From the NCBI RefSeq assembly GCF_039543825.1, contig NZ_BAABKM010000002.1, positions 2,884,133 through 2,948,132 on the forward strand: DNA of 64,000 bases. Reading direction: 5' to 3'. Below the pieces are notes generated by a model. The model was not told where the DNA came from. It saw nothing but the letters and a program-made list of their open reading frames with translations, and ran no database searches. The stretch is from Nocardioides conyzicola (GTDB lineage Bacteria; Actinomycetota; Actinomycetes; Propionibacteriales; Nocardioidaceae). The stretch's first letter is position 1. The number at the start of each line of letters is the position of its first letter. Positions 20,877 through 40,285 of the stretch are shown piece by piece. Made by a program: the position numbers and the translations under genes.

Positions 20877-20904
20877 TAACGCGAGCGTTAAAACGTTCGT
20901 TTCA
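20877..20904 (-). promoter_or_regulatory. Purine-island motif copy 1 with adjacent palindrome, upstream of ABC importer
   Basis: On the reverse strand TGAAACGAACGTTTT (20904-20890) matches the 15-bp motif found before uraD, the NCS1 permease and the FmdA-type amidase. A second palindrome, TAACGC-GA-GCGTTA (20877-20890), abuts it. Both lie about 115-140 bp before the binding-protein start. Confidence 0.6.
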
Positions 20905-21032
20905 GGAGCTCGGGTGAGGAAAGGGGTTCTCGAGACCGGGTCGACCACTGTCGTACGGCGGCCGACCCGTTCGTGGCAGAGGTGAGAGGCCGCCCAGGAC
21001 GGGCGTCCGCACCGTCACAGGAGATGAGACAG

Positions 21033-21851
21033 ATGCCGCACCCGGAGCCGGTCGCCCGCCGACTGTTCGACCTCACCGAGCCGATCTCGCTGGTCAACTT
21101 CTTCTCCGACGAGCCCAACGAGGCGATGGCGTCGCTCGGCTTCCGCGACTACTGGGACGGCTACTTCGCCGGACGTTCGGCACCCCTCGGACGGGTGCCC
21201 GCTGAGGTCGTCGACGCGGCGTTCTACAGCTTCGCGGACGGCGAGGTGGCCCGCCACATCCCCCACGTCTGGGAGACGACGACGCCGGAGGCCGCGCACG
21301 CCGCGCGCCAACGGGGCTGCGTCGCGGCGCTGCGGCGCATCCTCGGCGACCTGGTCGGGTCTCCCGTGCTCGCGCGGGCCGCCGAGCTCCTCGCCGCGGC
21401 ATCGACCAGTGCGCCGACCGAGGGACGGGTGATGTACGCCGGCCTGCGCGCCCTCCCGGTGCCCGAGGAGCCGGTCGCCCGGCTCTGGCACGCGGCCAAC
21501 ATGCTGCGTGAGCACCGCGGTGACGGCCACATCGTGGCCCTGATGGCCGAGCAGGTCGGCGGGACCGAGGCCCACGTGCTCAGCGCCCTCGACATGGGCG
21601 TCTACCCGGCCGAGTCCTTCGGCCGGATCCACCACCTCCCCGCGGCCAGGCTCGCCGCGGTCATGGACGGCCTGCGCGGTCGTGGTCTCCTCGATGCCGA
21701 CGGCCGGCTGACCGATGCCGGTCGCGCGACCAAGGCCCGGATCGAGCTCCTGACCGATGCGCTCGCGGAGGCGCCGTACGAGGCGTTGACGCCGGTCGAG
21801 CTCGACGAGCTGGTCGGTGCGCTCGAGCCGATCGCGAGCAGGCTCAGCTGA
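21033..21851 (+). CDS. SCO6745-family protein (helix-turn-helix-like)
   Basis: A 272-residue protein of an actinobacteria-specific family. It begins MPHPEPVARRLFDLTEPISLVNFF and ends in a helical region with a winged-helix-like pattern (LAAVMDGLRGRGLLDADGRLTDAG, about 210-240). The central half holds conserved ARLWHAANMLREHRGDGHIVAL. Function is not established; a regulatory or small-molecule-sensing role is suggested only by the HTH-like end. The start at 21033 has AGGAG nine bases upstream; an ATG at 21024 directly after the AGGAG is too close. Its 3' end overlaps helR by 8 bp. Confidence 0.72.
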   Translation: MPHPEPVARRLFDLTEPISLVNFFSDEPNEAMASLGFRDYWDGYFAGRSAPLGRVPAEVVDAAFYSFADGEVARHIPHVWETTTPEAAHAARQRGCVAALRRILGDLVGSPVLARAAELLAAASTSAPTEGRVMYAGLRALPVPEEPVARLWHAANMLREHRGDGHIVALMAEQVGGTEAHVLSALDMGVYPAESFGRIHHLPAARLAAVMDGLRGRGLLDADGRLTDAGRATKARIELLTDALAEAPYEALTPVELDELVGALEPIASRLS

Positions 21852-23988: not shown

Positions 23989-24012
23989 GTCGGGAGAGTC
24001 TGGGCCACGACC

Positions 24013-24034
24013 GGGGCCTTGCCGCAAGCCGGGG
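24013..24034 (-). promoter_or_regulatory. Rifamycin-associated element (RAE) upstream of helR
   Basis: Read on the reverse strand this contains GGCTTGCGGCAAGGCCCC, an inverted repeat around CTTGC-GGCAAG that matches my memory of the 19-bp RAE found before rifamycin-inactivating genes and helR. It lies just after a possible -10 box (TATAGC, 24045-24040) and before the helR start. Role inferred from the known element. Confidence 0.85.
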
Positions 24035-24055
24035 GGTCGGCTATACCTTGGAAGT

Positions 24056-24079
24056 GGAGAGACCCGGTCGGGCCTCTCC
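24056..24079 (-). terminator. Hairpin terminator after guanine deaminase
   Basis: A ten-base-pair stem with a four-base loop (arms GGAGAGGCCC and GGGTCTCTCC on the reverse strand, one G-T pair) starts nine bases after the deaminase stop. There is no T tract, which is normal for high-GC actinobacteria. It would separate the purine operon from helR. Confidence 0.7.
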
Positions 24080-24088
24080 TTCTCTGTG

Positions 24089-24556
24089 TCAGTACGCCGT
24101 GCGCTCGGTGTTGCTGAGCCACGCGTCGAACGGCGCGAACGCCTCGGGATGCCGCCCGGCCTCGACCGCTGTCGGCCAGGTCGAGCGGTCACGGGCGAAG
24201 AGCTCGTAGAACTCCCGGTCGTCGAAGCCACCTCGCGCGGCGTCGTGGCGGTCGGCGGCGTAGACGACCCGGTCGAGGCGGGCCCAGAGCGCGGCGGAGA
24301 CGCACAGCGGGCAAGGCTCGCACGACGTGTAGAGGACCGACCCGGCCAGCGAGAAGTCCCCGAGGTCGGCGCACGCGGTCCGGATCGCCAGCACCTCGGC
24401 GTGCGCGGTGGGGTCGTTGTCGCGGGTGACCCGGTTCTGCCCGGTCGCCAGCAGCGTCCCGTCCCGCACGATCACCGCGCCGAACGGACCACCTCCCTCG
24501 GCGACGTTGGCGACCGCGAGGTCGAGGGCCTGGGCGAGCCAGCGGTCGTCGGTCAT
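24089..24556 (-). CDS. guaD: Guanine deaminase (cytidine deaminase-like fold)
   Basis: A 155-residue zinc deaminase. The ligands are HAE in NDPTAHAEVLAIR and the pair in SCEPCPLC. The segment RVVYAADRHDAARGGFDD and the ordering match Bacillus-type GuaD rather than the tRNA adenosine deaminase branch. It hydrolyses guanine to xanthine plus ammonia, feeding the xanthine dehydrogenase encoded just upstream. The ATG overlaps the xanthine dehydrogenase stop (ATGA, 24553-24556). It is the last gene of the operon and is followed by a hairpin. A general nucleoside deaminase is the alternative, less likely in this context. Confidence 0.85.
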   Translation of the reverse strand: MTDDRWLAQALDLAVANVAEGGGPFGAVIVRDGTLLATGQNRVTRDNDPTAHAEVLAIRTACADLGDFSLAGSVLYTSCEPCPLCVSAALWARLDRVVYAADRHDAARGGFDDREFYELFARDRSTWPTAVEAGRHPEAFAPFDAWLSNTERTAY

Positions 24557-27153
24557 GTGGCCTCCTGGTTGGCGAGTCTCCAGAGCCGGTCGCGGCTCAT
24601 CGGCAGCTCGTGAGGGCGTACGCCGAGGGCGTCGCGCACGGCGTTGGCGATCGCGGGCGCCACCGGGTTGTACGGCGCCTCGCTCATCGACTTGGCTCCG
24701 CGCGGCCCGAGCTCGTCGTACGTGTCGGCGAAGAGCACCTCCGTCGGTGGCACGTCGGCCATCTGCGGGACCCGGTAGTGCCGGAAGGTGCGGGTGAGGA
24801 CCTCGCCGTCGCGGACCATGATCTCCTCCTGCAGCGCGCTGCCGAGCGCCTGCGCGACGCCGCCCTCGACCTGCCCGCGCAGCTGCTCGGGGTTGATCAC
24901 CCGGCCGGCGTCGACGGCGTGCACGGAGCGCAGCACGCGCAGCTCCCCGGTCAGCCGGTCGACCGCGACCCGGACGCCGTGGACGTTGAAGGCCACCGAC
25001 CGCGGCGTACCGGAGTGATGCCCAGAACGGCTCAACGGTGGGGTTTCACCGGCATCGAGGGCGGCGCGGAGCGTTCGCGCCGCGCGGGCGACCGCGGTGC
25101 CGGCGACGACCGAGCCGGTCGAGCCGAAGGCCCCGGTGTCGTACGCCGCCGCATCGGTGTCCGAGGAGTGCAGCCGGACCCGCGCGGGGTCGACGCCGAG
25201 CTCCTCCGCGACCAGCTGCACGTGGACGGTGGCCGACCCGTTGCCGAACTCCGCGCTCCCCACGCCGATCGTCACGGTGCCGTCCGCGTCCAGGCTGACC
25301 GTCGCCTCGCTGTGGTGGCCACGCGGCGGGATCGTGGCGATCATCGACGCCGCGACGCCCTCGCCGATCGCCCACCTCCCGCCAACGGGCGCCGGGGCGT
25401 CGTCGGTCGCGGCCAGCGCGCTCTCGACCAGGTCGAGGCACTGGTCGAGGCCGTAGCTGCCGAACACCAGGTCGGTGTCCGGCTCGCCGTTGACGACGAA
25501 CTCGTCGCCGGGGCGCACGACGTTGCGCCGGCGCAGCTCGACGGGGGAGATCCCCAGCTCGCGGGCCAGCTCGTCGAGCGCCGACTCGATCCCGAAGATC
25601 ACCTGGCCGAGCCCGTAGCCGCGGAAGGCCCCCGACGGCACGTGGTTGGTGTAGACCGCCTCGGCGTCGACCCGCTTGTTGGCGCACCGGTAGAGCGCCA
25701 CCGACTCGTGGCAGCCGTGGAAGAGCACCCCGACCGAGTGGTTGCCGTAGGCGCCCGCGTCGCTGAGCACGTCGACGACGAGCGCGGTCAGCACGCCGTC
25801 GGCGTCGGCGCCGGCTGTCACCGAGATCCGCATGGGGTGGCGGCTCGGCACGAGCGTGAACTGCTGCTCGCGGGTCAGCTCCAGCTGGACCGGTGCCTGC
25901 AGGCGGAGCACGGCGAGCGCGACCAGGTCCTCGACGAGCATCTCCTGCTTGCCGCCGAACCCGCCGCCCACGCGTGCCGCGATGACCCTGACCCGGTCCT
26001 CGTCCAGCCCCAGGACGTGGGCGAGCTCGGCGCGCACCAGGAACGGCACCTGGGTGCTCGCGCGGATCACCAGCCGCCCGTCCTCGTCGATCCAGCCGCG
26101 GGCGCCGTGGGTCTCCAGCGACGCGTGGGTGACCCGCGCGGTCCGCCAGGTCCCGGTCACGGTCGCGGCCGCCGCGGCCAGCCCGGCGGTCACGTCGCCG
26201 ATCTCGCCGTGGGTCTGCGCGACCACGTTGCGGTCGGGTTCCGCGATGCGGGAGGTGTCCGACGCCTTGTCGCCGTGCAGGAGCGGGGCACCGGCCGTGC
26301 GGGCGGCCTCGGGGTCGAAGACGGCCGGCAGGACGTCGTACTCGATGTCGATGAGGGACGCCGCGTGCTGTGCGGCGCCGACCGACTCGGCCACCACGGC
26401 GGCGACCCGCTGGCCGCGGAAGCGCACGACCTCGTCGAGCATCCGGGTGTCGTCCGGGTCGTCGAGGCGGCTCTCGTGGCGGGCGGTGGAGTAGAGCACG
26501 TCGGGGACGTCGTGGTGCGTGAGGACGAGGCGTACGCCGGGGGCCGCCTCGGCCCTGCTGGTGTCGATGCGGGTGATCCGGGCGTGGGCGTGCGGGCTCT
26601 GCACCAGCGCCAGGTGCAGCACGCCGGTCGTCGGCAGGTCGAGCGTGTAGGGCTCGGTGCCGGTGACGACCCGCGCGGCGGCCGGCGCTCCGAGCGAGGC
26701 GCCGAAGGCCGCGCCGTCGGCGGTCGCCGGGCCGACGTTGACCGTGCCGGACAGCGCGTCGCGGATCGAGCGGTAGCCGGTGCAGCGGCACAGGTTGCCC
26801 TTGAAGCACCGCGCGACGTCGGTCGGTGCGCCGGCTCCGGTGGCCGTCATGATGAAGCCGGCGGTGCAGAAGCCGCACTGGAACCCCGCGGCGTCGGCGA
26901 ACGCGCGCTGCACCGGGTGCGGGTCCTCCGGGGTGCCCAGGCCCGCCAGGGTCGTCACCTCGTGCTCGACGGCACGGGCGGCCGGGTAGAGGCAGGAGTG
27001 CACCGGCGCCCCGTCGACGTGGACGGTGCAGGCGCCGCAGTCGCCGGCGTCGCAGCCCTTCTTGACGTCCAGGCGCCCGGCCTCGCGCAGGAACGCGCGC
27101 AGGCACTGGCCCGGTGCGGGAGTCGCCTCGACCGGCTCGCCGTTGACCCTCAT
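24553..27153 (-). CDS. Xanthine dehydrogenase, fused [2Fe-2S] and molybdopterin subunits
   Basis: An 866-residue protein oxidising hypoxanthine/xanthine to urate. Residues 1-150 form the ferredoxin and helical 2Fe-2S domains, with Cys34, Cys39, Cys42 and Cys54 (CDAGDCGAC) and the second cluster in CGFCTAGF and CRCTGYRSI. From about 180 to the end is the aldehyde oxidase/xanthine dehydrogenase Mo domain, with RVGGGFGGK, SGAFRGYGLGQ and the C-terminal region GAKSMSEAPYNPVAPAIANAV, which should hold the catalytic Glu. The FAD domain is a separate gene upstream. The ATG at 27153 has GGAGG six bases away. An unusual 247-bp repeat-filled gap precedes it. No XdhC-type maturation gene is visible. Confidence 0.9.
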   Translation of the reverse strand: MRVNGEPVEATPAPGQCLRAFLREAGRLDVKKGCDAGDCGACTVHVDGAPVHSCLYPAARAVEHEVTTLAGLGTPEDPHPVQRAFADAAGFQCGFCTAGFIMTATGAGAPTDVARCFKGNLCRCTGYRSIRDALSGTVNVGPATADGAAFGASLGAPAAARVVTGTEPYTLDLPTTGVLHLALVQSPHAHARITRIDTSRAEAAPGVRLVLTHHDVPDVLYSTARHESRLDDPDDTRMLDEVVRFRGQRVAAVVAESVGAAQHAASLIDIEYDVLPAVFDPEAARTAGAPLLHGDKASDTSRIAEPDRNVVAQTHGEIGDVTAGLAAAAATVTGTWRTARVTHASLETHGARGWIDEDGRLVIRASTQVPFLVRAELAHVLGLDEDRVRVIAARVGGGFGGKQEMLVEDLVALAVLRLQAPVQLELTREQQFTLVPSRHPMRISVTAGADADGVLTALVVDVLSDAGAYGNHSVGVLFHGCHESVALYRCANKRVDAEAVYTNHVPSGAFRGYGLGQVIFGIESALDELARELGISPVELRRRNVVRPGDEFVVNGEPDTDLVFGSYGLDQCLDLVESALAATDDAPAPVGGRWAIGEGVAASMIATIPPRGHHSEATVSLDADGTVTIGVGSAEFGNGSATVHVQLVAEELGVDPARVRLHSSDTDAAAYDTGAFGSTGSVVAGTAVARAARTLRAALDAGETPPLSRSGHHSGTPRSVAFNVHGVRVAVDRLTGELRVLRSVHAVDAGRVINPEQLRGQVEGGVAQALGSALQEEIMVRDGEVLTRTFRHYRVPQMADVPPTEVLFADTYDELGPRGAKSMSEAPYNPVAPAIANAVRDALGVRPHELPMSRDRLWRLANQEAT

Positions 27154-27173
27154 ACCGGCCTCCGCGAGGCGGC

Positions 27174-27430
27174 GGTGAGCAGGCAACCGTTGGGGGTCGA
27201 CCTCCGCGGGGCGGTGGTGAGCAGGCAACCGTTTCGGGTCGCATGGTGCTCGAGAACGGTTGCTGACTCACCGCTCGCCGGCCCCAACCCGCTCATGACA
27301 GCAGCTCCGCTCGCACTGGCGGCGGTGAGCAGGCAACCGTTTCGGCTCGCGTGGTGCTCGAGAACGGTTGCTGACTCACCGCTCCCCGGCGTCCACCCGC
27401 TCATGACAGCAGCTCCGCCCGCACCTCGTG
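27174..27430. repeat. Tandemly duplicated inverted-repeat element
   Basis: Two 57-bp copies (27216-27272 and 27324-27380) each have arms GGTGAGCAGGCAACCGTT and AACGGTTGCTGACTCACC, able to form a hairpin with an ~18-bp stem (one-base bulge or mismatch) and a loop of about 21 bases. Their spacing is 108 bp and the flanks are also duplicated, including the last codons and stop of the FAD-subunit gene (27401 region copied at 27293). A third left arm alone lies at 27174-27191. No transposase is encoded. It sits inside the operon between the FAD subunit and xanthine dehydrogenase genes. Confidence 0.85.
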
Positions 27431-28162
27431 CGCCAGCAGACCGGTGACGTGGGCGCGCCAGTCGGCGGGGCCGTGCGGGTCGTCGTACCAGCAGTCGACC
27501 GCCGCGAGCCCGTCGTCGAGGTCGTCCACGTCGAGGACGACCGGGCGGGTGGTCGCGGCGGTGACGGTGATCCGCCGGCCGCAGCCGATGACGACGGCGG
27601 CGGCGCGGCCGAGCGGGGTGAGGGCGGTACGCCGGAAGGCCGACGGCAGCGAGAGCGACGCGGTGGGTACGTCGACCGCGCGGATCACCTCGCCCGGCCC
27701 GAGGGTCGTCGTACCGGCGCCGGTGACGAAGTCGACGACGGGCTCCTCGCGCTCGCCGCCGTCGGGTGTCCAGATGACGACGGCGCCGCCGAGCGCGGCC
27801 GTCAGCGAGATCATCGCGCCGGCGGGCAGCGCCAGCGCGAGGTTGCCGCCGACGGTGGCGACGTGCTGCACCTTCCACGACATCAGGAACGAGTCGGCGC
27901 TCGCCCGGGCCAGCGCGTCCGCAGCACCCCACGGTGCACCGAGCGCCCGCAGGACCGTGCAGGTCGCCCCGATCCGGAGCACGCCGGGCAGCTCCTCCCA
28001 GTCGGGCCAGCCGAGCGTCGTGAGGTCCACCAGGCCGCTGACCTCCGGCTGCGGCTCCGAGAAGAGCCAGGACCCGCCCGCGAGCAGCGCCTCGCCGGGC
28101 CCGAGCGCCAGGTCCTCGCGGCCCCGGGCGAGCCGGTGGCTGGTGACGGTGTGGAGGTCCAT
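27401..28162 (-). CDS. Xanthine dehydrogenase FAD-binding subunit
   Basis: A 253-residue flavoprotein subunit of the molybdopterin dehydrogenase FAD-binding family (CoxM/XdhB-like). The FAD-contacting motif is AGGSWLFSE near residue 28, followed by VDLTTLGWPDWEE, IGATCTVLRAL and, in the middle, VGGNLALALPAGAMISL, which corresponds to the TIGGN-type flavin loop. It transfers electrons from the Fe-S clusters of the fused subunit to NAD or another acceptor. The ATG at 28162 overlaps the preceding regulator's stop (TGATG) and has GAGG eight bases upstream; a GTG at 28165 is possible. Confidence 0.85.
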   Translation of the reverse strand: MDLHTVTSHRLARGREDLALGPGEALLAGGSWLFSEPQPEVSGLVDLTTLGWPDWEELPGVLRIGATCTVLRALGAPWGAADALARASADSFLMSWKVQHVATVGGNLALALPAGAMISLTAALGGAVVIWTPDGGEREEPVVDFVTGAGTTTLGPGEVIRAVDVPTASLSLPSAFRRTALTPLGRAAAVVIGCGRRITVTAATTRPVVLDVDDLDDGLAAVDCWYDDPHGPADWRAHVTGLLAHEVRAELLS

Positions 28163-28986
28163 CACTCGACCTCGGCGAGTCTTCCGTACGACGCGCTGAT
28201 GTCTGCGACCCGGTCACGGGCCGCCCGGCCCAGGGTCGAGAGCACGCCGTCGGCGAGCACGCTGACCAGGCTCATCGCGGCCGCGTAGCTGTCGAAGGCG
28301 AGCGTGCTGCTCACCGGGCACTCCAGCCAGTACGCCGCCGAGGCCGCGTGCCGGCGCGCCGTCGGGTCGCCCAGCAGCACGACGGTCGCGCCGGTGGCGG
28401 CGGCCTCGGTGAGGAAGCCGCCGAAGTCGGCCGGACGCCGCCGGAAGCCGACCATCACCACCGCGTCACCGGCGGCGAGGTCGGCGAGCTCCTCGCTGAT
28501 CACCTGGCCGGGCAGGGGCGCCAGGCGTACGTCGCCGCGCGCGTGGGCCAGCTGCTGGCGCAGGTGCAGCGCCACCGGGTGGCTGTTGCGCCAGCCGACG
28601 ACCAGCACCCGACGGGCACCGGCCAGCAGGGCGACGACCTCGCCGAGCGCCGGGCTCTCCAGCGCGACGCGCAGCGACTCCTGCTCGTGCGCGAGGTGGT
28701 CGACGGTGGTCGAGGCGCCGTCCAGCCGCCGGGGCTCGCCGGCGGACCGCAGCGCGCGCAGGTGGTCGCGGACCTCGTCGAAATCGGAGAAGCCCAGGCT
28801 GCGGAAGAGCCGGCTCATCGTCGCCTTGGACACGCCGGCGAGGTCGGCGAGCTCGGCGGAGCGGTAGGTCGCCAGGTCGTCCAGGTGCTCCAGCAGCGTC
28901 TCGGCCGCACGCCGCTCCTGCGGCGAGAGGACGGCGTACCGCTGCGTGATCCGCTCGTCGATCCGGCTGTCCAGGCGCTCACTCAC
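28162..28986 (-). CDS. MurR/RpiR-family transcriptional regulator
   Basis: A 274-residue regulator with an N-terminal HTH (about residues 15-90; ELADLAGVSKATMSRLFRSLGFSDFDEVR) and a C-terminal SIS domain beginning VLVVGWRNSHPVALHLRQQL. SIS domains usually bind phosphosugars; here a purine-pathway ligand is more likely from context. It lies in the middle of the ten-gene purine operon, with a GTGA overlap to allC upstream and a TGATG overlap to the FAD subunit downstream. An RpiR-type regulator is also known from Klebsiella hpx purine genes. It may control this operon, though no specific operator can be tied to it. Confidence 0.85.
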   Translation of the reverse strand: MSERLDSRIDERITQRYAVLSPQERRAAETLLEHLDDLATYRSAELADLAGVSKATMSRLFRSLGFSDFDEVRDHLRALRSAGEPRRLDGASTTVDHLAHEQESLRVALESPALGEVVALLAGARRVLVVGWRNSHPVALHLRQQLAHARGDVRLAPLPGQVISEELADLAAGDAVVMVGFRRRPADFGGFLTEAAATGATVVLLGDPTARRHAASAAYWLECPVSSTLAFDSYAAAMSLVSVLADGVLSTLGRAARDRVADISASYGRLAEVE

Positions 28987-31405: not shown

Positions 31406-32739
31406 GAGCCGGGCCTCCTCAGCTGTCGTCCCCACCGGTGGTCGGGATGCTCGACGTCGATCGCGTTGCCGCGCACCACGGAGCGGGTGATCCGGCCGCC
31501 GAAGCGGAGACCGTCGTACGCCGAGATCGGGTTGCGGTGGGCGAGCCGGGTGGCCTCGATGCGGAACTCGACGCCGCTGTCGTAGATCGCGAGGTCGGCG
31601 TCGGCGCCGACCTCGATCCGGCCCTTGGCGCCGAGACCGACGAGGTCGGCGGTGTTGCGCGACATCCACCGGCTGACGTCCGCGAGCGGGATGTTGCGGC
31701 GCCGCGCCTCCTGGGCGACCGCGCTGAAGCCGACCTGCAGGCCGGAGACGCCGCCCCACGCCTGCTGCAGGTCGCCGTCGCCCCGGCCCTTCTCCTCGGC
31801 GGTCGCGGGGGAGTGATCGCTGACGACCATGTCGATGACCCCGGCGCGCAGCCCCTGCCAGAGCTCCTCGCGGTTGCCGGCGTCGCGGATCGGCGGGCAG
31901 CACTTGAACTGCGACGAGCCGTCCGGGATCGTCTCGGCCGCGAAGCAGAGGTAGTGCGGGCAGGTCTCGACGGTGACCCGCAGCCCCTCGGCCTTGGCGT
32001 CGGCGATCGCGTCCAGCGCCCGGGCGCTCGACAGGTGCAGGACGTGCACCCGCGCGCCGGTCTCGCGCGCGCCGTCGAGGACGCGCTGGATCGCGGTCAG
32101 CTCGGCGGCGTCCGGCCGGGAGAGCAGGAAGTCGCGGTAGGCCCGGCCCGGGGTCGCGGGCGCGACCTCGAGGACCCCTGCGTCCTCCGCGTGCACGATC
32201 ATCAGCCCGTCGAAGCGCGCGATCTCGCTGAGCGCCGCGACGAACTGGTCGGGGTCGAGCGGCGGGAACTCATCGACCCCGCTCGGCGACAGGAAGCACT
32301 TGAAGCCGAAGACGCCGCTCTCCCACAGGGGTTCGAGGTCGGCCAGGTTGCCTGGGACGGCTCCTCCCCAGAAGCCGACGTCCACCATGAGCTCGCCGTC
32401 GGCGGCCTCCTGCTTGAGCCGCAGGTGCTCGACGGTGGTGGTCGGCGGGATGGAGTTGAGCGGCATGTCGACCAGGGTGGTGGCGCCGCCCAGGGCTCCG
32501 GCCTCGGTCGCCGACACGAAGCCCTCCCACTCGGTGCGCCCGGGCTCGTTGATGTGCACGTGGGTGTCCACGATGCCGGGCACGACGTACGCCGTGTCAG
32601 GTGCGCGCAGCACCACCCCGTCGACCTCGTGATCGACCGCCTCGATCGCCTCGATCCGGCCGTGGTGGACGAGGACCGTGGCCGGCGTGAAGGCACCGTC
32701 GACCAGCACCCGCTGGGCCTGTACGGCGTCGATGCGCAT
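31402..32739 (-). CDS. allB: Allantoinase
   Basis: A 445-residue cyclic amidohydrolase. Binuclear metal site: THVHINEPG, the carboxylated Lys in FGFKCFLSPSG, histidines in MIVHAED and VHVLHLSSA, and Asp in VVSDHSP. The CCPPIRDAGNREELW segment is typical of allantoinase and distinguishes it from dihydropyrimidinase. It opens the hydantoin ring of (S)-allantoin to allantoate. Start ATG with TGAGG; it begins five bases after the uricase stop, the only non-overlapping junction in this half of the operon. Confidence 0.92.
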   Translation of the reverse strand: MRIDAVQAQRVLVDGAFTPATVLVHHGRIEAIEAVDHEVDGVVLRAPDTAYVVPGIVDTHVHINEPGRTEWEGFVSATEAGALGGATTLVDMPLNSIPPTTTVEHLRLKQEAADGELMVDVGFWGGAVPGNLADLEPLWESGVFGFKCFLSPSGVDEFPPLDPDQFVAALSEIARFDGLMIVHAEDAGVLEVAPATPGRAYRDFLLSRPDAAELTAIQRVLDGARETGARVHVLHLSSARALDAIADAKAEGLRVTVETCPHYLCFAAETIPDGSSQFKCCPPIRDAGNREELWQGLRAGVIDMVVSDHSPATAEEKGRGDGDLQQAWGGVSGLQVGFSAVAQEARRRNIPLADVSRWMSRNTADLVGLGAKGRIEVGADADLAIYDSGVEFRIEATRLAHRNPISAYDGLRFGGRITRSVVRGNAIDVEHPDHRWGRQLRRPGS

Positions 32740-32744
32740 CGACC

Positions 32745-33587
32745 TCAGGCCCTCTCGCGCTGGACCGTGGCCTCGATCAGGCCGTACGGGCGGTCCGCCG
32801 CGAAGAAGACCTCGCCCGGGTTGTCGAGCCCGAAGGGCTGCAGGTCGACCAGGAAGTGGTGCTTGTTGGGGCAGGAGATGTGGATGCGCGCGATCTCCGG
32901 CACGGCGTCGAGGGCGGCGGCCCCCATGGCGTGGATGGTCTGCTGGAGCGCGAGGCTGTGGGTCGAGGCGAACGCGTCGAGCATCGCCGTGCGGACGACG
33001 TCGTACGCCGCGTCGTAGTCGACCGGCGCGGGCACACCGTCGTACTGCCAGGTCGCGGTCACGCTGGTCGCCAGGACGCGGTCGTCGGTCTCGGCCAGCG
33101 TGGTGTAGCGGTCGCGCGGGAAGCCGTGGAACTCGCTGCCCGTCGACTTGAGGACCACCAGGTCGGAGAGCCCGGCGCTGACCGTGGTCTGCTCGCCGTC
33201 GGTCTCGACCAGCGCCGTGCGGGTCTCCTGGCCGCTGCGGACGAAGGAGTGCCCGTTGGCGGGCAGCCGGTGCCACGCGTACTGCTCGGCGGCGAGCCAG
33301 GTGCCGGTGACCCACGCCTGGGCACGCCAGTGCGCGGCGAGCGCGAGCAGGAAGTCCTCGGGCGACGTGACGCCGTGCTCGCGGGCCAGGGCGTAGACGG
33401 TGTTCTTCTGGGTGTCGGTCGCGTGCACGTGGGAGTTGTCGCCCTCGGTGTACGCCGTCTCGAAGTCGCCGCGCAGCTGGCTCGTCACGTTGAGGTCGTG
33501 CAGCACGTGCTGGTCGCCGGCGCGGTCGACCTTGACGAGCCGCACCTCGGCCTTCCCGTGCTGGAGGTCGGTCAGCGAGTAGGCCAT
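32745..33587 (-). CDS. Urate oxidase (uricase)
   Basis: A 280-residue cofactor-free urate hydroxylase made of two T-fold domains. Diagnostic pieces include HATDTQKNTVYALA (active-site Thr/Lys), VLKSTGSEFHGF, DRVLATSVTATW and HISCPNKHHFLVDL near the C-terminus. It oxidises urate to 5-hydroxyisourate and peroxide. Equivalent to Bacillus pucL uricase domain, but here the OHCU decarboxylase is a separate gene. ATG overlaps the uraH stop by one base (TGATG). Confidence 0.93.
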   Translation of the reverse strand: MAYSLTDLQHGKAEVRLVKVDRAGDQHVLHDLNVTSQLRGDFETAYTEGDNSHVHATDTQKNTVYALAREHGVTSPEDFLLALAAHWRAQAWVTGTWLAAEQYAWHRLPANGHSFVRSGQETRTALVETDGEQTTVSAGLSDLVVLKSTGSEFHGFPRDRYTTLAETDDRVLATSVTATWQYDGVPAPVDYDAAYDVVRTAMLDAFASTHSLALQQTIHAMGAAALDAVPEIARIHISCPNKHHFLVDLQPFGLDNPGEVFFAADRPYGLIEATVQRERA

Positions 33588-33907
33588 CAGGACCCCCGGT
33601 AGGTGGTGTAGGAGTACGGGCTGAGCAGCACCGCCACGTGGTAGTGCGACTGCTCCGGGTCGACCGTGAACGACACCGCGACCTCGGGGTAGAAGGTGTC
33701 GCGCTGCGCCGCCGCGAAGTAGCCGCCGGTGTTGAAGACCAGCCCGTGCGTACCGGCACCGAGCTCGAGGTCGAAGGAGACCCGGCCGTCGGCGTCGGTC
33801 GTCGCCTCGGTGACCCGGCGGCCCTGCTCGTCGTACAGCATCACGTCGAGCGCGGCGGCGGGCACGCCGAGCACGGAGTCGAGGACGTGCGTGGAGAGGG
33901 TGCTCAT
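33587..33907 (-). CDS. uraH: 5-hydroxyisourate hydrolase (transthyretin-like)
   Basis: A 106-residue transthyretin-like protein. Family marks are STHVLDSVLGVPA at the N-terminus (catalytic His), the Arg in YDEQGRRVTE, HYHVAVLLSPYSYTTYRGS at the C-terminus, with the invariant YRGS end. It hydrolyses 5-hydroxyisourate to OHCU as a tetramer. No signal or peroxisomal targeting extension is present. ATG overlaps the uraD stop (ATGA, 33904-33907). Confidence 0.94.
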   Translation of the reverse strand: MSTLSTHVLDSVLGVPAAALDVMLYDEQGRRVTEATTDADGRVSFDLELGAGTHGLVFNTGGYFAAAQRDTFYPEVAVSFTVDPEQSHYHVAVLLSPYSYTTYRGS

Positions 33908-34398
33908 GCGAAAAGTCCTTCCAGGCGGAGCAGGGCGATCTCGCGCAGCTGTCCGGACGTCACGGCGATCTCGGTCTCGGGGTCGTTCGCGAGGCGCTCC
34001 TCGAGCAGCCCCAGGATCTCCTCGGCGCTGCGGCCGGCCGCCCGCACCAGGTAGATGCGGTCGAAGCGCTCCTCGTACGCCGCGTTGCCCTCCGCCAGCC
34101 GGCGCTGGACGTCGGCGTCGTGCGGGTCGACGGCGGCCTGCTCGCTGCGGGACATCCGCGCGCTGGTGCCGGTCCCCGCGTGCCGCTCACCGATCCGCGG
34201 GTGGTCGGCGAGGGCCCGCTCGACCTCGGCCGAGGTCCAGGTGCGGGCCTGGGCGTCGGCCGCGGAGAGCAGCTCGTCGAGCCCGGCGTACGGCCGGCCC
34301 CGGACGATCGCGCGCGCCCACGAGTCGATGTCGACGCACGGGCGCACGACGGCGTCCGCGTCCTCGGTCGGCATCGCGTTGAACTCGTCGAGTCGCAC
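33904..34398 (-). CDS. uraD: 2-oxo-4-hydroxy-4-carboxy-5-ureidoimidazoline decarboxylase
   Basis: A 164-residue all-helical decarboxylase producing (S)-allantoin. The catalytic motif ADHPRIGER is present, as is the C-terminal LREIALLRLEGL helix. It is the first gene of the ten-gene purine operon. The GTG start has GAGGAGG at ideal spacing. The purine-island motif lies 49 bp upstream. Confidence 0.9.
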   Translation of the reverse strand: MRLDEFNAMPTEDADAVVRPCVDIDSWARAIVRGRPYAGLDELLSAADAQARTWTSAEVERALADHPRIGERHAGTGTSARMSRSEQAAVDPHDADVQRRLAEGNAAYEERFDRIYLVRAAGRSAEEILGLLEERLANDPETEIAVTSGQLREIALLRLEGLFA

Positions 34399-34446
34399 AG
34401 TTCCTCCTCGGGCCGTGACACTAGGGATCCGATGTAAATCGGGACC

Positions 34447-34461
34447 GAAACAATCGTTTCA
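34447..34461 (-). promoter_or_regulatory. Purine-island motif copy 2, upstream of uraD operon
   Basis: TGAAACGATTGTTTC on the reverse strand; its core GAAAC-GATT-GTTTC is a perfect inverted repeat with a 4-base spacer. It lies in the promoter region of the main purine operon and is the most symmetric of the four copies. Confidence 0.75.
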
Positions 34462-34506
34462 GTGACGTTACGGTCTACCCGGTGGGGCCCTCGGGTCAAC
34501 GGCGGC

Positions 34507-35211
34507 TCAGGCGTAGGCCTTGGCCGGCGGGGTCGCGAACTCGCCGCGCTTGCCGGTGCGCAGGCCGAGGCGCACCAGCTTCTCCACCTCGAGCGTCGCC
34601 GCGGCCACGCCGTCGACCACGGGGACGCCCAGCTCGGCGGAGAGCCGCTGGCACAGGTCGGCCATGCCGGCGCACCCGAGCACGATCGCGTCCGAGCCGT
34701 CGCGGTCGAGCGCCGACCGGCAGGCGGCGAGGATCACGGCGTACGCCGCGGGGTCGGTCTCGAGCTCGACCACCGGGATCTCGCACGCGTGGACGCCGGC
34801 GCACGCGTCGGCGACGCCGTACTGGCGAGCGAGCTCCCACGTGTGCCCGATCGTGCGGGAGAGCGTCGTGACGACGCTGAACGTGCGGCCGAGGTACGCC
34901 GCGGTGCGCATCGCCGCCTCGGCGATCCCGACGACCGGCGCCGCCGCCAGCTCGCGCGACGCGAGCAGGCCCGGGTCGCCGAAGCAGGCGATGACGTGGC
35001 CGTCGTACCCGGCCAGCTCGGCGGCCGCGATCTCGGCGAGGACGCCCGGGACCGCCATCGCCTCGTCGTAGTGGCTCTCGACCGACGCCGGCCCGGTGGC
35101 CGGGTTGACCGCGTCGACGGTGACGCCCGGGCCGGCGACGGCCCGGGCGCACTCGCCGATCAGGGCGGTCATCGACGCCGTGGTGTTCGGGTTGACGACC
35201 AGGATCCGCAT
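34507..35211 (-). CDS. Asp/Glu/hydantoin racemase family, probable allantoin racemase
   Basis: A 234-residue racemase. The N-terminus MRILVVNPNTTASMT is the family signature, and the two catalytic cysteines are in ACFGDPGL and LGCAGM. Family members racemise hydantoins or allantoin. Because the gene is coupled to an NCS1 permease (TGATG overlap at 35209-35213) and sits next to allantoinase genes, allantoin racemisation, letting imported (R)-allantoin enter the (S)-specific pathway, is the best reading. A 5-substituted hydantoin racemase is the alternative. Confidence 0.82.
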   Translation of the reverse strand: MRILVVNPNTTASMTALIGECARAVAGPGVTVDAVNPATGPASVESHYDEAMAVPGVLAEIAAAELAGYDGHVIACFGDPGLLASRELAAAPVVGIAEAAMRTAAYLGRTFSVVTTLSRTIGHTWELARQYGVADACAGVHACEIPVVELETDPAAYAVILAACRSALDRDGSDAIVLGCAGMADLCQRLSAELGVPVVDGVAAATLEVEKLVRLGLRTGKRGEFATPPAKAYA

Positions 35212-36851
35212 CAGCCGGTCGCCGCCGCCCCGCCGGGGAGCTCGGCGCGGCTCATCGTCGCCTCGCCGGTGTTGATGGCGGCCAGCGCCGACACGCTCTC
35301 CTTGTCGGCGGCGGTCACGGGACCGGCGTGGCCGTCCGTCGGCTCGCCGAGGCCGGCGGCGCGGGCCAGGACGAGGTAGACGGTGAAGCCGAGACCGCAG
35401 CCCACGAACCACGCGTAGTTGGGCAGCCACTCGAGGACGTCGGTCTCGTTGGGGACGATCACGGAGGCGAGCGCGATGACACCGGTGATGACCACCGCCT
35501 TCACGGCGGCCATGTTGTATCCGTTGCGGTAGTAGTAGGTGCCCGCCTGGTCCATGGTGAAGAGGTCGTCGACGACGACCTGCTGCTTGCGCACCAGGTA
35601 GAAGTCGGCGATCAGGATCCCGAAGAGCGGTCCGATCAGGGCGCCGAGCAGGCCGAGCGTCCAGAAGATCGCGTCGGGGTTGTCGTACCAGTTCCAGGGC
35701 GTCAGCAGCACCGAGCCGACGGCCGCGATCATGCCGCCCATCCGCCAGCTGATCTTCTGCGGGTTGACGTGCGAGAAGTCGAACGCCGGCGAGATGAAGT
35801 TGGCGACGATGTTGATGCCGACCGTCGCGGTCACGAAGGTCAGGCCGCCCAGGATGATCGCGAAGGTGCTGTCGATCTGGTTGACCGTCTGGATCGGGTC
35901 GGTGATCAGCTCGCCGTACACCGGAACGGTCGCCGCCGCCGTGAGCACGGTGAGCAGCGAGAACATCACGAAGTTGACCGGCAGCCCCCAGAAGTTGCCC
36001 TTCTTCACCTGACCGAAGGTGCGGGCGTAGCGGGAGAAGTCACCGAAGTTGAGCATCGGGCCCGAGAAGTAGGCGACGACCACCGCGATCGCCCCGAGCA
36101 TGGTGGAGACGAGGGTCCAGCCGCCGAGGTCCTTGTCGGAGAGGTTGAGGTCGATGTCGAAGTCCGCCTTGTAGAGCAGGTAGCCGCAGAGCAGCACCAT
36201 CGCGACGTACACGGCGGGGCCGGCGAGGTCGATGAACCTGCGGATGGTGTCCATGCCGCGCCAGAAGAGCAGCGCCTGCAGGACCCAGAGGATCGCGTAG
36301 CTGACGTAGCCCAGGTAGGAGAGGCCGAGGAAGCCGTGGATGTCGACGTCCGCCCAGTCGGCCAGCCCGGGCCAGAGCTTGAGGAAGACGATGTTGAGCG
36401 ACTCGGCGGCGAGGAAGGTCTGGACGCCGTACCAGGCGACCGCGATCAGGCCGCGGATGATGGCCGGGATGTTGGCGCCGAGGACGCCGAACGACGCGCG
36501 GCTGATGACCGGGTAGGGCACGCCGGTGAGCTGGCTCGGCTTGGCGACCAGGTTGCAGAAGAACTGGACGATGCAGATACCGACGATCAGGCAGATGAAG
36601 ACCTGCCAGCTGGTGAGGCCGAGGGCGAACAGGCTGCCGGCGGTCAGGTAACCGCCGACGCTGTGCACGTCGGACATCCAGAAGGCGAAGATGTTGTAGG
36701 TGCCCCACGTCTGCTCCTTGAGCGGGGCGAGGTCCTCGTTGGTGAGCCGCGGGTCGTAGTCGCGCTTGGCGACGCCGCGGCCCGGTGGATAGCCGGCGGC
36801 CTCGACGAGGTCCGGCTCTGGTCGTCTGGCGCCCTGCTCGATGTCGGTCAT
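35211..36851 (-). CDS. NCS1-family permease (allantoin/hydantoin/purine type)
   Basis: A 546-residue transporter with twelve predicted helices. NCS1 features include TWGTYNIFAFWMSDVHSVGG in helix 1, the YPVISRASFGVLGANIPA loop, AVAWYGVQTFLAAESL in helix 3-4, and NFGDFSRYARTF. The residues resemble hydantoin/allantoin permeases (HyuP, PucI) more than cytosine permeases. Start at the ATG 36851 with GAGGAG; an upstream in-frame extension lacks a ribosome binding site. It forms a two-gene unit with the racemase. A purine-island motif lies 59 bp upstream, next to a TAGCGT -10 box. Confidence 0.87.
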   Translation of the reverse strand: MTDIEQGARRPEPDLVEAAGYPPGRGVAKRDYDPRLTNEDLAPLKEQTWGTYNIFAFWMSDVHSVGGYLTAGSLFALGLTSWQVFICLIVGICIVQFFCNLVAKPSQLTGVPYPVISRASFGVLGANIPAIIRGLIAVAWYGVQTFLAAESLNIVFLKLWPGLADWADVDIHGFLGLSYLGYVSYAILWVLQALLFWRGMDTIRRFIDLAGPAVYVAMVLLCGYLLYKADFDIDLNLSDKDLGGWTLVSTMLGAIAVVVAYFSGPMLNFGDFSRYARTFGQVKKGNFWGLPVNFVMFSLLTVLTAAATVPVYGELITDPIQTVNQIDSTFAIILGGLTFVTATVGINIVANFISPAFDFSHVNPQKISWRMGGMIAAVGSVLLTPWNWYDNPDAIFWTLGLLGALIGPLFGILIADFYLVRKQQVVVDDLFTMDQAGTYYYRNGYNMAAVKAVVITGVIALASVIVPNETDVLEWLPNYAWFVGCGLGFTVYLVLARAAGLGEPTDGHAGPVTAADKESVSALAAINTGEATMSRAELPGGAAATG

Positions 36852-36909
36852 GGGTTCTCCTCGGTCCTCGAGCGACACCCGTCGTCGCTGCCGTCCCGGG
36901 CGACGCTAG

Positions 36910-36924
36910 GAACCGGTTGTTTCA
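36910..36924 (-). promoter_or_regulatory. Purine-island motif copy 3, upstream of NCS1 permease
   Basis: TGAAACAACCGGTTC on the reverse strand, followed three bases after the core by TAGCGT, a plausible -10. Same position relative to a TAGCNT box as copy 4, which supports overlap with the promoter. Confidence 0.7.
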
Positions 36925-36971
36925 CCGACCCTTGGCCGCGGTGAACCCGACGTCACGGGAAAGATATAGGG

Positions 36972-37676
36972 CTATAGGAAGACGTCGGGATCGTCGCGGA
37001 AGGACGCGATCCCGTCCTTGAGGTGGGCGAAGTGGAGCGCCGACTCGGCGACGAGGGCGTCGGCGTCGCGGGCCACGAAGGCCGCCAGCATCCGGTCGTG
37101 GTCGTCGTGGAACGAGCGCCGGCCGACCTCGTCGACGCGCGACATGGGCCGGGCGGGCTCGGTCATGTTCCAGGCGCCCTCGTACATGTGCAGCAGCCGC
37201 TGCATCCGCGCCGGCGCGATCAGCGCCATGTGGAAGCGCCGCGACTCCGCGTGGTAGGCGCGTTCGTCGTCGCGCTCGATGGCTCCCGCCATCGCCTCGT
37301 GCGTCTCCCGGACCACCTCGTCGTCGGCGGCGGTCGCCGTGACCACGGCCGCCCGCAGGGCCGCGGCCTCGAGCGCCTGGCGGACGTCGTACAGCTCGGC
37401 GAACTCGACGAAGCTGAGCTTGGCGACGCTGTAGCCGACGTGCGGGATGTGCTCGACCAGGCCCTCCCCGAGGAGCTCCCGGAGCGCCTCCCGGACCGGG
37501 ATCTGGCTGACGCCGAAGAACTGCGCCACCGCCTCGATCGGGATCAGCGTCCCCGGTGGCTCGTCGCCGCCGAGGATCGCGTTGCGCAGGTCGTCGAGCA
37601 CCCGCGGGGCGCGAGCCCCCGGCGTCGAGTTGACGAGCCGCGCGGTGAAGATCGAGCGGCGCCGGGGTGCTGACAT
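36972..37676 (-). CDS. GntR-family (FCD) transcriptional regulator
   Basis: A 234-residue regulator with an N-terminal winged helix (residues about 25-90; AVAQFFGVSQIPVREALRELLGEGLVEHIPHVGYSV) and a C-terminal all-helical FCD ligand domain, with metal-binding type His/Asp pattern (ESRRFHMALI, HDDHDRMLAAF). It is the last gene of the unit FmdA-like amidase, AtzH-amidase, gntR, and lies only 9 bp after the amidase stop. It is the best candidate to bind the four 15-bp purine-island motifs, but this is inference from position; Klebsiella purine genes also use a GntR-type regulator (HpxS). Confidence 0.87.
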   Translation of the reverse strand: MSAPRRRSIFTARLVNSTPGARAPRVLDDLRNAILGGDEPPGTLIPIEAVAQFFGVSQIPVREALRELLGEGLVEHIPHVGYSVAKLSFVEFAELYDVRQALEAAALRAAVVTATAADDEVVRETHEAMAGAIERDDERAYHAESRRFHMALIAPARMQRLLHMYEGAWNMTEPARPMSRVDEVGRRSFHDDHDRMLAAFVARDADALVAESALHFAHLKDGIASFRDDPDVFL

Positions 37677-37685
37677 CGCCTCACC

Positions 37686-39182
37686 TCACCCGAGGTCGAC
37701 GGCGAGCTGGAGGAGGTCGCGGTCCCGTCCCGGTGCGGCGACCAGGCAGACCCCGACGGGCAGCCCGGCCGGGGTGCGGCGGGGGATGCTGACCGCGGGG
37801 AGGCCGGCCAGCCCGGCGAGGCAGGTGAGCGACATGGTGGCCGTGCGGACGGCGTCCAGGCCCTCGCCGACCAGCGGCGCGACCGAGGCGGCGGACGGCA
37901 GCACGAGCACCCGGTCGCGGACGAGCTCGCGGATGCGGTCCCGCGCCTCGTCGACCTGGTCCTGGGCGGCGACCGCGCGCTCGTCGTCGATCAGCGCCGC
38001 CGCCTCGAACCGACCGCGGACATCGGCGCCGAGCTCGTCGAGACGCGGCGCGATCCAGGCACCGCGCTCCTGCCAGGCCTCCCAGGCCTGCAGGGTCTGG
38101 AACGCCTGCAGCCAGGCCGGCAGGTCGGTGAGGTCCCAGGACTCGCGCATCGCGCCGTGCTCGGCGGCGTACCGGTCCACGACCGCGGCGACCTCCTCGC
38201 TGGCGATCGCGGTGAGACCCGGGACGCTGACCAGCTCGGCCGCCGGGTTGCGCGCGACCGGCGGGAGCAGCACGTCCCCGACCCGACGCAGCAGCTCGGC
38301 GCTGCGGGTCACCCAGCCGACGGTGTCGAAGGACCGGGAGAGCGGCATCAGGGCGTACGTCGACGCCGCGCCGTGGGTGGTGCGGATGCCGAAGAGACCC
38401 TGGTACGCCGCGGGCACGCGGATCGAGCCGCCGGTGTCGGTGCCGAGGCCGATGCTCGCGTGGCCGAGCGAGACCGCGCTCGACGAGCCCGACGTCGAGC
38501 CGCCGGAGATGCGCAGCGGAGCCTGGGGGTTCGGGGGAGTGCCGTAGTGCGCGTTGGTGCCGGCCAGGGAGTAGGCGAACTCGTCGGTGCGGGCGATCCC
38601 GCGGACCGAGGCCCCGGCCTCGAGCAGCTGCTCGACGGCCCGGGCGTGCACCGGCTCGGTCCGGGCGCCGGCCAGCCACGCGGGGTTGCCGGCCCCGATG
38701 CGCTGGCCCCGCACGGCGTACAGGTCCTTGACGGCGACGCTCTCGCCGTCGAGCGGACCGCTGTCGATCGGCGGGACGAGCGGGTCGCCGACGAGCCGCC
38801 AGATCCGGGTGTCGACCGCGGGTGCCGGGACGGAGACGTGGGCCGCGCTGACCCGCCAGCCGTCGCCCGTGCGGACCCAGAGCTGGGTCTGCTGGCCGCG
38901 ACCACCGCGCGCGAGCTCGGTGACCGCGACGACCAGCGCGTGGTCGTCGTCGACGGTCTGCACGTGGGTCTGCACGATCCGGCGCTGGGGGGCGCCGCCG
39001 CGGCTGCTGCGGAAGGCACTGATCTGGTCGTGGCCGACCAGGAGCCCGTTGGCGTCGCCGCGCAGGGTGGCCGGCCCGGGTGCGAAGAGGCGGTCGAGGG
39101 TCGGTACGTCGTCGGACATCAGCGCGCGCTCGTACTCCCAGAACGCCTCGACGAGCCCGTCGGGGACCGGTGCTTGGGTCAT
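37686..39182 (-). CDS. AtzH-like domain fused to amidase-signature hydrolase
   Basis: A 498-residue fusion. Residues 1-~125 form an AtzH/HpxZ-like SnoaL-fold domain (ends WVRTGDGWRVSAAHVSVP); residues ~140-498 are an amidase-signature enzyme with catalytic Lys in VAVKDLYAV, cis-Ser in SGGSTSGSSSAV and nucleophile Ser in GTDTGGSIRVPAAYQG. In Pseudomonas cyanuric acid degradation and Klebsiella hpx genes the two are separate proteins (AtzE/AtzH, HpxY/HpxZ). With pucG producing oxalurate, a role on oxalurate or another N-carbamoyl acid is likely; allophanate hydrolysis is an alternative. ATG overlaps the FmdA-like stop (ATGA). Confidence 0.85.
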   Translation of the reverse strand: MTQAPVPDGLVEAFWEYERALMSDDVPTLDRLFAPGPATLRGDANGLLVGHDQISAFRSSRGGAPQRRIVQTHVQTVDDDHALVVAVTELARGGRGQQTQLWVRTGDGWRVSAAHVSVPAPAVDTRIWRLVGDPLVPPIDSGPLDGESVAVKDLYAVRGQRIGAGNPAWLAGARTEPVHARAVEQLLEAGASVRGIARTDEFAYSLAGTNAHYGTPPNPQAPLRISGGSTSGSSSAVSLGHASIGLGTDTGGSIRVPAAYQGLFGIRTTHGAASTYALMPLSRSFDTVGWVTRSAELLRRVGDVLLPPVARNPAAELVSVPGLTAIASEEVAAVVDRYAAEHGAMRESWDLTDLPAWLQAFQTLQAWEAWQERGAWIAPRLDELGADVRGRFEAAALIDDERAVAAQDQVDEARDRIRELVRDRVLVLPSAASVAPLVGEGLDAVRTATMSLTCLAGLAGLPAVSIPRRTPAGLPVGVCLVAAPGRDRDLLQLAVDLG

Positions 39183-40255
39183 GGGTTCAGTGTGCCGAAG
39201 TCGGCCTTGCGGATGCGTGCGTGGACGCCCTTCACGACGTCGACGACCTGGGAGATGTCGAAGTCGGTGGCCGCCGAGAGGTAGGCGTAGGCCAGCGCCG
39301 GGTCCATCCCGTAGCGGCTCTGGAGCAGGGCGATCGCGGCGCGGACACAGTTCTGCACCGCGACGTCGAGGTCCTCGTCCATGCCCGTGGGCACGAGGTG
39401 CTCGGCGGTCTCGACGAGCGGCCCGGCGAGCTCGCCGAAGAGGCGTACGCCGTCCTCGCGCGGCACCACGTCGAGGCGGACGGTCGCCCGGAGGGAGGCC
39501 TCCATCGCGGTCAGCGACACCTCACCGTCGCCCTGGGCGAAGTGCGGGTCGCCGACGTACGCGAGCGCCCCCTCGACCTGGACCGGGAGGTAGAGCGTCG
39601 AGCCGACGGTGAGCAGGTTGACGTCGATGTTGCCGCCGTGCGGGCCGGGTGGCACCGAGTGCGGCCGCGCGTCCCCCGCGACGGCGACGCCCATGATCCC
39701 GAGGAAGGGGGCGAGCGGGAACTCGACCACGCGCTCGCCGCCCTGCCGGAGCGGCAGCTGCCCGTGGGTGCCCTGCTGGTTGACAGAGGCGAAGGCGCTG
39801 AAGACGTCGCCCTCGCGGGGGTACTCCCCGGGCAGCGCGCCCTTCCCGTGACGGTTGGAGATCACGCCGTACGGCACCCGCTGGAGGGTCTCGACCACCG
39901 TCATCGCGAGCAGGTCACCGGGACGCGCCCCCTCGACGCGGACCGGTCTGCTGACCACGTGCGGCCCGTCGACGCCGAACGTGTGCGGCAGCTCGCCGGC
40001 GGCGATCTCGATGGCGTCGTCGAGCACCCCGGCCACGTCGTACCGCCCGAAGAACGCCTTGGGGTCGCGCCCCTGGTCCTCGAGGATCCCCTCGTGGCTG
40101 ACCGTGTCGAACGTGACCTCGGTGCCCGGCTCCACGGTCAGCACGGCGTCGTCGGTGGCGCACGGCAGCCGCCCCCACAGCACGTGGTCCGGCGTCGAGG
40201 GCAGGTACGCCGACCCGCGGATCGGGCCCGACCCGGGCTGCAAGACGTCGCTCAT
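39179..40255 (-). CDS. Acetamidase/formamidase (FmdA/AmdA) family amidohydrolase
   Basis: A 358-residue member of the FmdA_AmdA family. Signature segments are PVRVEGARPGDLLAM, GPHGGNIDVNLLTVGSTLYLPV and GDPHFAQGDGEVS, which carry the zinc/metal and substrate residues in known formamidases. Members hydrolyse short aliphatic amides. As first gene of the unit with the AtzH-amidase and gntR, and preceded by a purine-island motif, it may release ammonia from oxamate or a similar small amide; that substrate is inference. Its ATG lies eight bases after TAGCCT, suggesting a leaderless transcript. Confidence 0.82.
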   Translation of the reverse strand: MSDVLQPGSGPIRGSAYLPSTPDHVLWGRLPCATDDAVLTVEPGTEVTFDTVSHEGILEDQGRDPKAFFGRYDVAGVLDDAIEIAAGELPHTFGVDGPHVVSRPVRVEGARPGDLLAMTVVETLQRVPYGVISNRHGKGALPGEYPREGDVFSAFASVNQQGTHGQLPLRQGGERVVEFPLAPFLGIMGVAVAGDARPHSVPPGPHGGNIDVNLLTVGSTLYLPVQVEGALAYVGDPHFAQGDGEVSLTAMEASLRATVRLDVVPREDGVRLFGELAGPLVETAEHLVPTGMDEDLDVAVQNCVRAAIALLQSRYGMDPALAYAYLSAATDFDISQVVDVVKGVHARIRKADFGTLNP

Positions 40256-40263
40256 GCCGGCCG

Positions 40264-40285
40264 AGGCTAGGCAACGCTTGTTTCA
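40264..40285 (-). promoter_or_regulatory. Promoter with purine-island motif copy 4
   Basis: TGAAACAAGCGTTGC (40285-40271, reverse strand) directly precedes a -10 box TAGCCT (40269-40264), which is eight bases before the ATG at 40255. The motif therefore fills the -10/-35 interval, where a bound protein would be expected to repress. Confidence 0.7.

Follow-up and report, generated by a model that had tools for sequence, protein, structure and literature searches.

We conclude with high confidence, from comparative sequence analysis, that the four copies of the palindrome TGAAAC-N4-GTTTCA in the analysed window (the whole 64,000-nucleotide stretch of DNA from the soil actinobacterium Nocardioides conyzicola) are the operators of the RpiR protein encoded within the main purine operon (28162..28986), and that this protein is an HpxU-type repressor with HTH_6 and SIS domains. 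We regard the system as an actinobacterial version of the HpxU regulon, much enlarged in extent. The original prediction of a purine/allantoin regulon is borne out, and the motif is conserved together with RpiR at uricase loci.

All four copies (20904-20890, 34461-34447, 36924-36910 and 40285-40271) were found exactly where they had been predicted, and each stands upstream of a transcription unit, at 126, 48, approximately 58 and 15 bp before the start codon, respectively. The original prediction also recorded an agreement between the strand of the motif and that of the genes, but because the motif is palindromic it reads identically on either strand and this agreement carries no evidence. Window features lie on the reverse strand unless otherwise noted, and -10 boxes were read by eye from the sequence, together with counts of TANNNT. 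Copy 1 (TGAAACGAACGTTTT, 20890..20904) heads an NMT1-type importer, consisting of a solute-binding protein (SBP; 19642..20763) and an ATPase with two permeases (17212..19627), and similar sites are found upstream of the SBP gene in loci L031, L046 and L053. This copy sits between the SBP gene and the 5' end of a forward-strand ORF (20973-21851) that matches the HTH_67 family (PF21863, E-value: 1.3e-84) and is directed away from the importer.

Copy 2 (TGAAACGATTGTTTC, 34447..34461) has perfect half-sites (GAAAC-GATT-GTTTC) and heads the main operon. In order, this unit encodes OHCU decarboxylase (uraD, 33904..34398), HIU hydrolase (33587..33907), uricase (32745..33587), allantoinase AllB (31402..32745; TIGR03178 above cut-off), ureidoglycine-glyoxylate aminotransferase (30212..31402; 71% identical to its counterpart in the K. 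pneumoniae hpx cluster, and with an enzyme of this activity as its best PDB match), allantoate amidohydrolase (28983..30248, start approximate; NF006775 above cut-off), RpiR, the FAD subunit of xanthine dehydrogenase (27401..28165), its fused Fe-S and Mo subunits (24553..27228, start approximate) and a cytidine-deaminase-family enzyme that, from its family and context, is probably a guanine deaminase (24089..24556). A degenerate second operator (34416..34431, matching at 8/12 positions) lies 30 bp downstream of copy 2 and overlaps a putative -10 box, TAGTGT (34418..34423); if this is the -10 of the uraD promoter, the 3' end of copy 2 falls on the -35 region. Further along this operon, a 107-nt unit that copies the terminal part of the gene for the FAD subunit is present in two tandem copies, 93% alike, between the two xanthine dehydrogenase genes (27210-27424). 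The unit contains an imperfect hairpin, whose folding energy over 27320-27400 is -40.6 kcal/mol (z -2.61); an exact pattern of the hairpin arms matches the genome solely at these two places.

Copy 3 (TGAAACAACCGGTTC, 36910..36924) lies upstream of genes for an NCS1 permease (35211..36878) and a protein of the Asp/Glu/hydantoin racemase family (34507..35214); the distance of approximately 58 bp takes ATG 36851 as the likelier permease start. An equal site is found upstream of ncs1 in locus L171 of genome G008. Copy 4 (TGAAACAAGCGTTGC, 40271..40285) heads genes for an FmdA-like amidase (39179..40255), which is a candidate replacement for HpxW, an AtzH-like/amidase fusion (37686..39182) and a GntR-FCD regulator (36972..37676). 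The fusion combines an HpxZ-like part (42%) with an HpxY-like part (31%) and is a probable oxalurate amidohydrolase. As originally predicted, copies 3 and 4 stand before a TAGCNT hexamer: the putative -10 boxes TAGCGT (36903..36908) and TAGCCT (40264..40269) each begin one base past the site. Because the fmdA ATG at 40255 is so near its putative -10, the mRNA is probably leaderless. According to PMC5270733, Bacillus forms oxalurate by way of ureidoglycine aminotransferase, and the HpxW of Klebsiella is an oxamate amidohydrolase; on this basis, the copy 4 unit plausibly finishes the oxalurate branch.

The evidence that carries the assignment to RpiR comes from uricase-centred loci of other Nocardioides genomes, in which the motif was sought with at most one mismatch. 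A 147-genome sample of the genus contained 44 RpiR-positive genomes with uricase, of which 40 were used (without G000, G016, G025 and G140), and 46 RpiR-negative genomes with uricase, of which 39 were used (without G068, G113, G128, G132, G148, G156 and G164). The RpiR match of G031 is a fragment and lies on a different contig from uricase. As these genomes overlap the separately named loci (L031 and L188, for example, are identical in sequence), the Nocardioides statistics were drawn from the genome sample only. Sites were present in 40/40 uricase loci of the RpiR-positive genomes (66 sites, 37 of them exact, in 656 kb) and in 0/39 of the RpiR-negative genomes (no site within one mismatch in 649 kb), a split with a Fisher p-value of 1.9e-23, uncorrected for kinship. 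Among 20 letter orders of the half-site, the motif ranked first in the RpiR-positive set, far ahead of the other 19, and had zero occurrences in the RpiR-negative set, and among spacers of 0-11 only a spacer of 4 was prominent in the RpiR-positive set (66 versus at most 5). One control order, ACGAA-N4-TTCGT, gave 28 one-mismatch sites in 19/39 RpiR-negative loci; it was dropped because these have similar letters and similar distances from uox, xdh or allB in related loci and were taken for conserved coding sequence.

Mapped onto the uricase tree, the presence of RpiR changes three times, as does that of the sites, and the two agree in 79/79 rows. As RpiR presence changes just three times, there are few independent events and a sign test cannot reach significance; its independent pairs (one starred pair, three on the best tree) are all in agreement. 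The cluster of genome G152 has kept the aminotransferase, allantoate amidohydrolase and xanthine dehydrogenase genes with no rpiR between them, and this locus has no site within one mismatch. A 14 kb contig of the same genome (C52, locus L250) carries two exact and two one-mismatch sites, and none of the 19 window genes has a match on it.

Promoter layout was counted over the 40 Nocardioides loci with duplicates removed, and 63/66 sites had an assignable gene start no more than 350 bp away. A TANNNT hexamer begins 1-2 bases past the site in 11/11 cases at fmdA, in 11/11 at the aminotransferase gene (ugat) and at the single ncs1 site. A uraD-assigned site is present in 34/40 RpiR-positive loci, and among the 37 uraD sites the hexamer begins 1-2 bases after the site in 7 and 22-23 bases after it in 23, with neither arrangement in the remaining 7. 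A TANNNT at 22-23 bases places the operator on the -35 region, so that both main layouts would be expected to block polymerase. Second operators (matching at least 8/12 positions) were found at 27-31 bp from 26% of 62 non-redundant Nocardioides sites, 55% of 67 other actinobacterial sites and 64% of 28 proteobacterial sites; at other distances the figures were 0-7%, except for 19% at 17-21 bp in Nocardioides. A spacing of 27-31 bp, or approximately three helical turns, is thus favoured for tandems in all three groups, while copies 1, 3 and 4 of the window have no partner of at least 8/12 positions at this distance. Because most operators abut or overlap a putative promoter, and many stand in such tandems, the layout fits steric repression.

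Of the alternatives, the one that survives best, although we consider it unlikely, is that RpiR acts at these sites as an activator, or as both repressor and activator. Copy 1 is well upstream of its putative -10 (approximately 46 nt), which leaves room for an activator and which simple occlusion fails to explain, and activators are described within the RpiR family (GlaR and the NanR of S. pneumoniae). Against this, the sites that abut a -10-like hexamer at every fmdA and ugat promoter counted leave little room for an activator, and HpxU is termed a repressor in the title of Guzman et al. 2013.

The original prediction had left the binder open between RpiR and the GntR-FCD protein, and the comparison favours the former. 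The gntR gene does lie between copies 3 and 4, it travels with the ncs1 and racemase genes, and a site is found near gntR in loci L171, L252 and L255. On the other hand, a GntR orthologue was found in only 9/147 genomes of the genus (one of them a weak match); it is present in 6 of the 40 motif-bearing genomes and missing from the other 34 (at an E-value of 1e-30). Furthermore, no site within one mismatch lies near gntR in the gntR-ncs1 units of L251, L253, L254 and L256. FCD regulators also usually bind a differently built operator. As the motif tracks RpiR and the GntR orthologue is rare, GntR was rejected as the binder of the four sites, a role that we consider very improbable for it.

The association of the motif with RpiR extends beyond the genus. 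We found 88 sites in 44 of 48 other actinobacterial loci around RpiR relatives and 32 sites in 12/12 proteobacterial loci, as compared to medians of 7 and 5, respectively, for the 19 other letter orders. Among 80 named loci that carry RpiR, 74 have a site within one mismatch and six (L045, L059, L068, L072, L073 and L097) have none; L045, L059 and L073 end before uraD, and L068 includes both uraD and fmdA. In L061 and L067, the single site is located at the SBP gene and none is found at uraD, while in Alloalcanivorax the sites are upstream of rpiR itself and of the aminotransferase gene. That sites precede differing genes in different lineages fits selection on the site rather than on its neighbours. 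It is also highly improbable that the sites are core promoter elements, such as the -35 of an alternative sigma factor: although their distance to TANNNT is fixed in two promoter classes, their dyad symmetry, the two distances to the -10 and the 27-31 bp tandems fit a dimeric protein, and site presence follows RpiR across two phyla.

Two plasmid loci were also noted. On a Cupriavidus oxalaticus plasmid (L267, 7912-7987), three sites stand exactly 30 bp apart just upstream of an HpxU-like rpiR gene. On a Rhizobium daejeonense plasmid (L265, 6008-6023), a one-mismatch site separates an RpiR gene from an importer-dihydropyrimidinase cluster that has a carbamoylase gene nearby; from this layout, the operator type may additionally serve hydantoin or pyrimidine breakdown.

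In the whole 4.96 Mb genome, the exact degenerate pattern has four matches, all in this window, and the reversed control pattern has none. The pattern was derived from the very sites that it matches, so a shuffle expectation of 0.00 offers no independent test; the comparisons with other genomes do. Allowing one mismatch to TGAAACN4GTTTC, there are nine distinct places in the genome, four of which are the window sites, all within approximately 20 kb. Of the other five, the first lies ahead of an rpoB-type gene, the second immediately precedes an MFS gene, the third is a few bases past the end of an MFS ORF, the fourth is inside a long ORF and the fifth was not placed. The gene preceded by the MFS site (2509710) was tried as a regulon member and rejected, as the match is independent of RpiR: a similar one occurs in G165, where RpiR has no match, and none occurs in G010 or G075, where it has one. 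With two mismatches allowed, the window has 9 matches versus 5.64 expected, but the genome-wide uniqueness of the exact pattern and its conservation in other genomes make a chance cluster of a short motif extremely improbable.

The original prediction had named no published counterpart for the motif, but the regulator groups with one that has been described. In Klebsiella pneumoniae, allantoate catabolism is under the control of an RpiR-type repressor, HpxU (Guzman et al. 2013, Int. Microbiol. 16:165-176, as cited in PMC10810197 and PMC7828314). The window RpiR matches PF01418 and PF01380 above cut-off (RpiR HTH and SIS domain), its predicted fold matches RpiR/SIS structures, including those of MurR and NanR, and it is 42% identical to the K. 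pneumoniae hpxU product. In a quick tree with long outgroup branches, from which two of 44 intended loci (L019 and L030) gave no row, a 37-row clade containing the HpxU proteins and the window RpiR is separated from 10 other RpiR rows with an SH-aLRT of 98. The recognition helix, GVSKAT(M/V)SRLF, is common to the window RpiR and HpxU, unlike that of the five other RpiR rows compared. An NCBIfam model for HpxU was matched by neither the window RpiR, nor the L108 protein, nor P0092 (an Erwinia protein named HpxU by NCBI), and HexR and the other RpiR-family NCBIfam models matched are far below cut-off on the window RpiR.

The neighbourhoods and operators of the two systems also correspond. The K. 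pneumoniae record contains an annotated hpx cluster with hpxU and the aminotransferase gene; hpxW and hpxF are unnamed there and were placed by comparison with an Enterobacterales locus (L108), which has a gamma-glutamyltranspeptidase-family gene and an SBP gene at the corresponding places. In K. pneumoniae, TGAAACGAAAGTTACA is located directly upstream of hpxU, TGAACGTTTCGTTTCA on the hpxW side and AGAATCTTTTGTTTCA upstream of the SBP gene (hpxF by position). These sites have 1-2 mismatches of 12, and three of the four such matches in 19.9 kb fall into the two gaps that flank hpxU. L108 encodes both ureidoglycine aminotransferase and allantoate amidohydrolase, as does the gene neighbourhood of the window RpiR and its relatives. 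The two systems have in common one regulator clade, the same recognition helix, similar operators (in Klebsiella, at hpxU and, judged by position, at hpxW and hpxF) and, as targets, ureidoglycine aminotransferase and an HpxY/HpxZ-like amidase. They differ in that the operators here additionally head the genes for uricase, HIU hydrolase, OHCU decarboxylase, allantoinase and xanthine dehydrogenase. Further operators of the window head an NMT1-type importer, where the Klebsiella hpx cluster has an amino-acid-type one, an NCS1 permease, and an FmdA-like amidase in the place that HpxW takes in hpx clusters.

The sensor domain sets this clade apart from its better-known relatives. HexR, MurR and NanR have an HTH_6 plus SIS layout and serve sugar-phosphate pathways. 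For HexR and MurR, these pathways are described in PMC5343134 and PMC7828314. The window RpiR lacks the phosphate-holding S-x-(S/T)-G-x-(S/T) loop of the SIS domain, and 37/37 clade rows instead have R182-R183-R184 in the phosphate-type loop and R133 in the first loop; an S-H-(T/S)-G-x-T loop is retained in 7/10 of the other RpiR rows. RccR of Pseudomonas aeruginosa (8ju9, 8k3b), which has the RpiR fold and is among the best PDB relatives of the search profile, has four phosphate-binding serines according to PMC10810197, and three of these (S183, S185 and S188) align with Gly180, Arg182 and Pro185 of the window RpiR. Invariant arginines in place of phosphosugar-binding loops would predict an anionic ureide effector. 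Another RpiR protein, encoded elsewhere in the genome that contains the window (L261, G000:C2:2165157-2165891), with 35% identity, also has altered SIS loops (GIRAS and MPRYP) and may sense something other than sugar phosphate.

Our proposed mechanism is that an RpiR dimer binds TGAAAC-N4-GTTTCA, often with two dimers (putatively as a tetramer) on operators approximately three helical turns apart. RNA polymerase would be blocked where the operator abuts the -10 (the fmdA, ugat and ncs1 type) or covers the -35 (the uraD type). A small anionic product of purine breakdown, such as allantoate, ureidoglycolate or oxalurate, would bind the rebuilt SIS pocket and release the repressor. As rpiR lies within the uraD operon, the regulator would control its own gene as well.

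Among the titles and abstract openings listed for open-licence papers, none describes actinobacterial purine catabolism as the regulon of an RpiR protein. What is new here is a probable regulon that runs from xanthine to oxalurate, together with importers, in Actinobacteria; its extent, the geometry of its operators, the rebuilt sensor pocket and the assignment to the pathway of two units whose function is unsettled all look new. A broader reading, which we hold tentatively and at slightly less than even confidence, is that the proteins of the HpxU clade form a branch of the sugar-phosphate RpiR family that senses ureides and spans Actinobacteria and Proteobacteria. Their SIS pocket would have been rebuilt around R133 and R182-R184 to recognise a purine product that is anionic and open-chain. 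Operators set approximately three helical turns apart would gate the pathway from xanthine to oxalurate and oxamate. Under the same reading, the FmdA-like enzyme would have replaced HpxW as the oxamate amidohydrolase and the NMT1-type system would be a ureide importer.

With these results, actinobacterial purine catabolism gains a candidate regulator, a candidate operator and a list of candidate targets. Two units of unsettled function, those of the FmdA-like amidase and the NMT1-type importer, are tied to the purine pathway. For the RpiR family, which is known for its sugar-phosphate sensors, a ureide-sensing branch is predicted.
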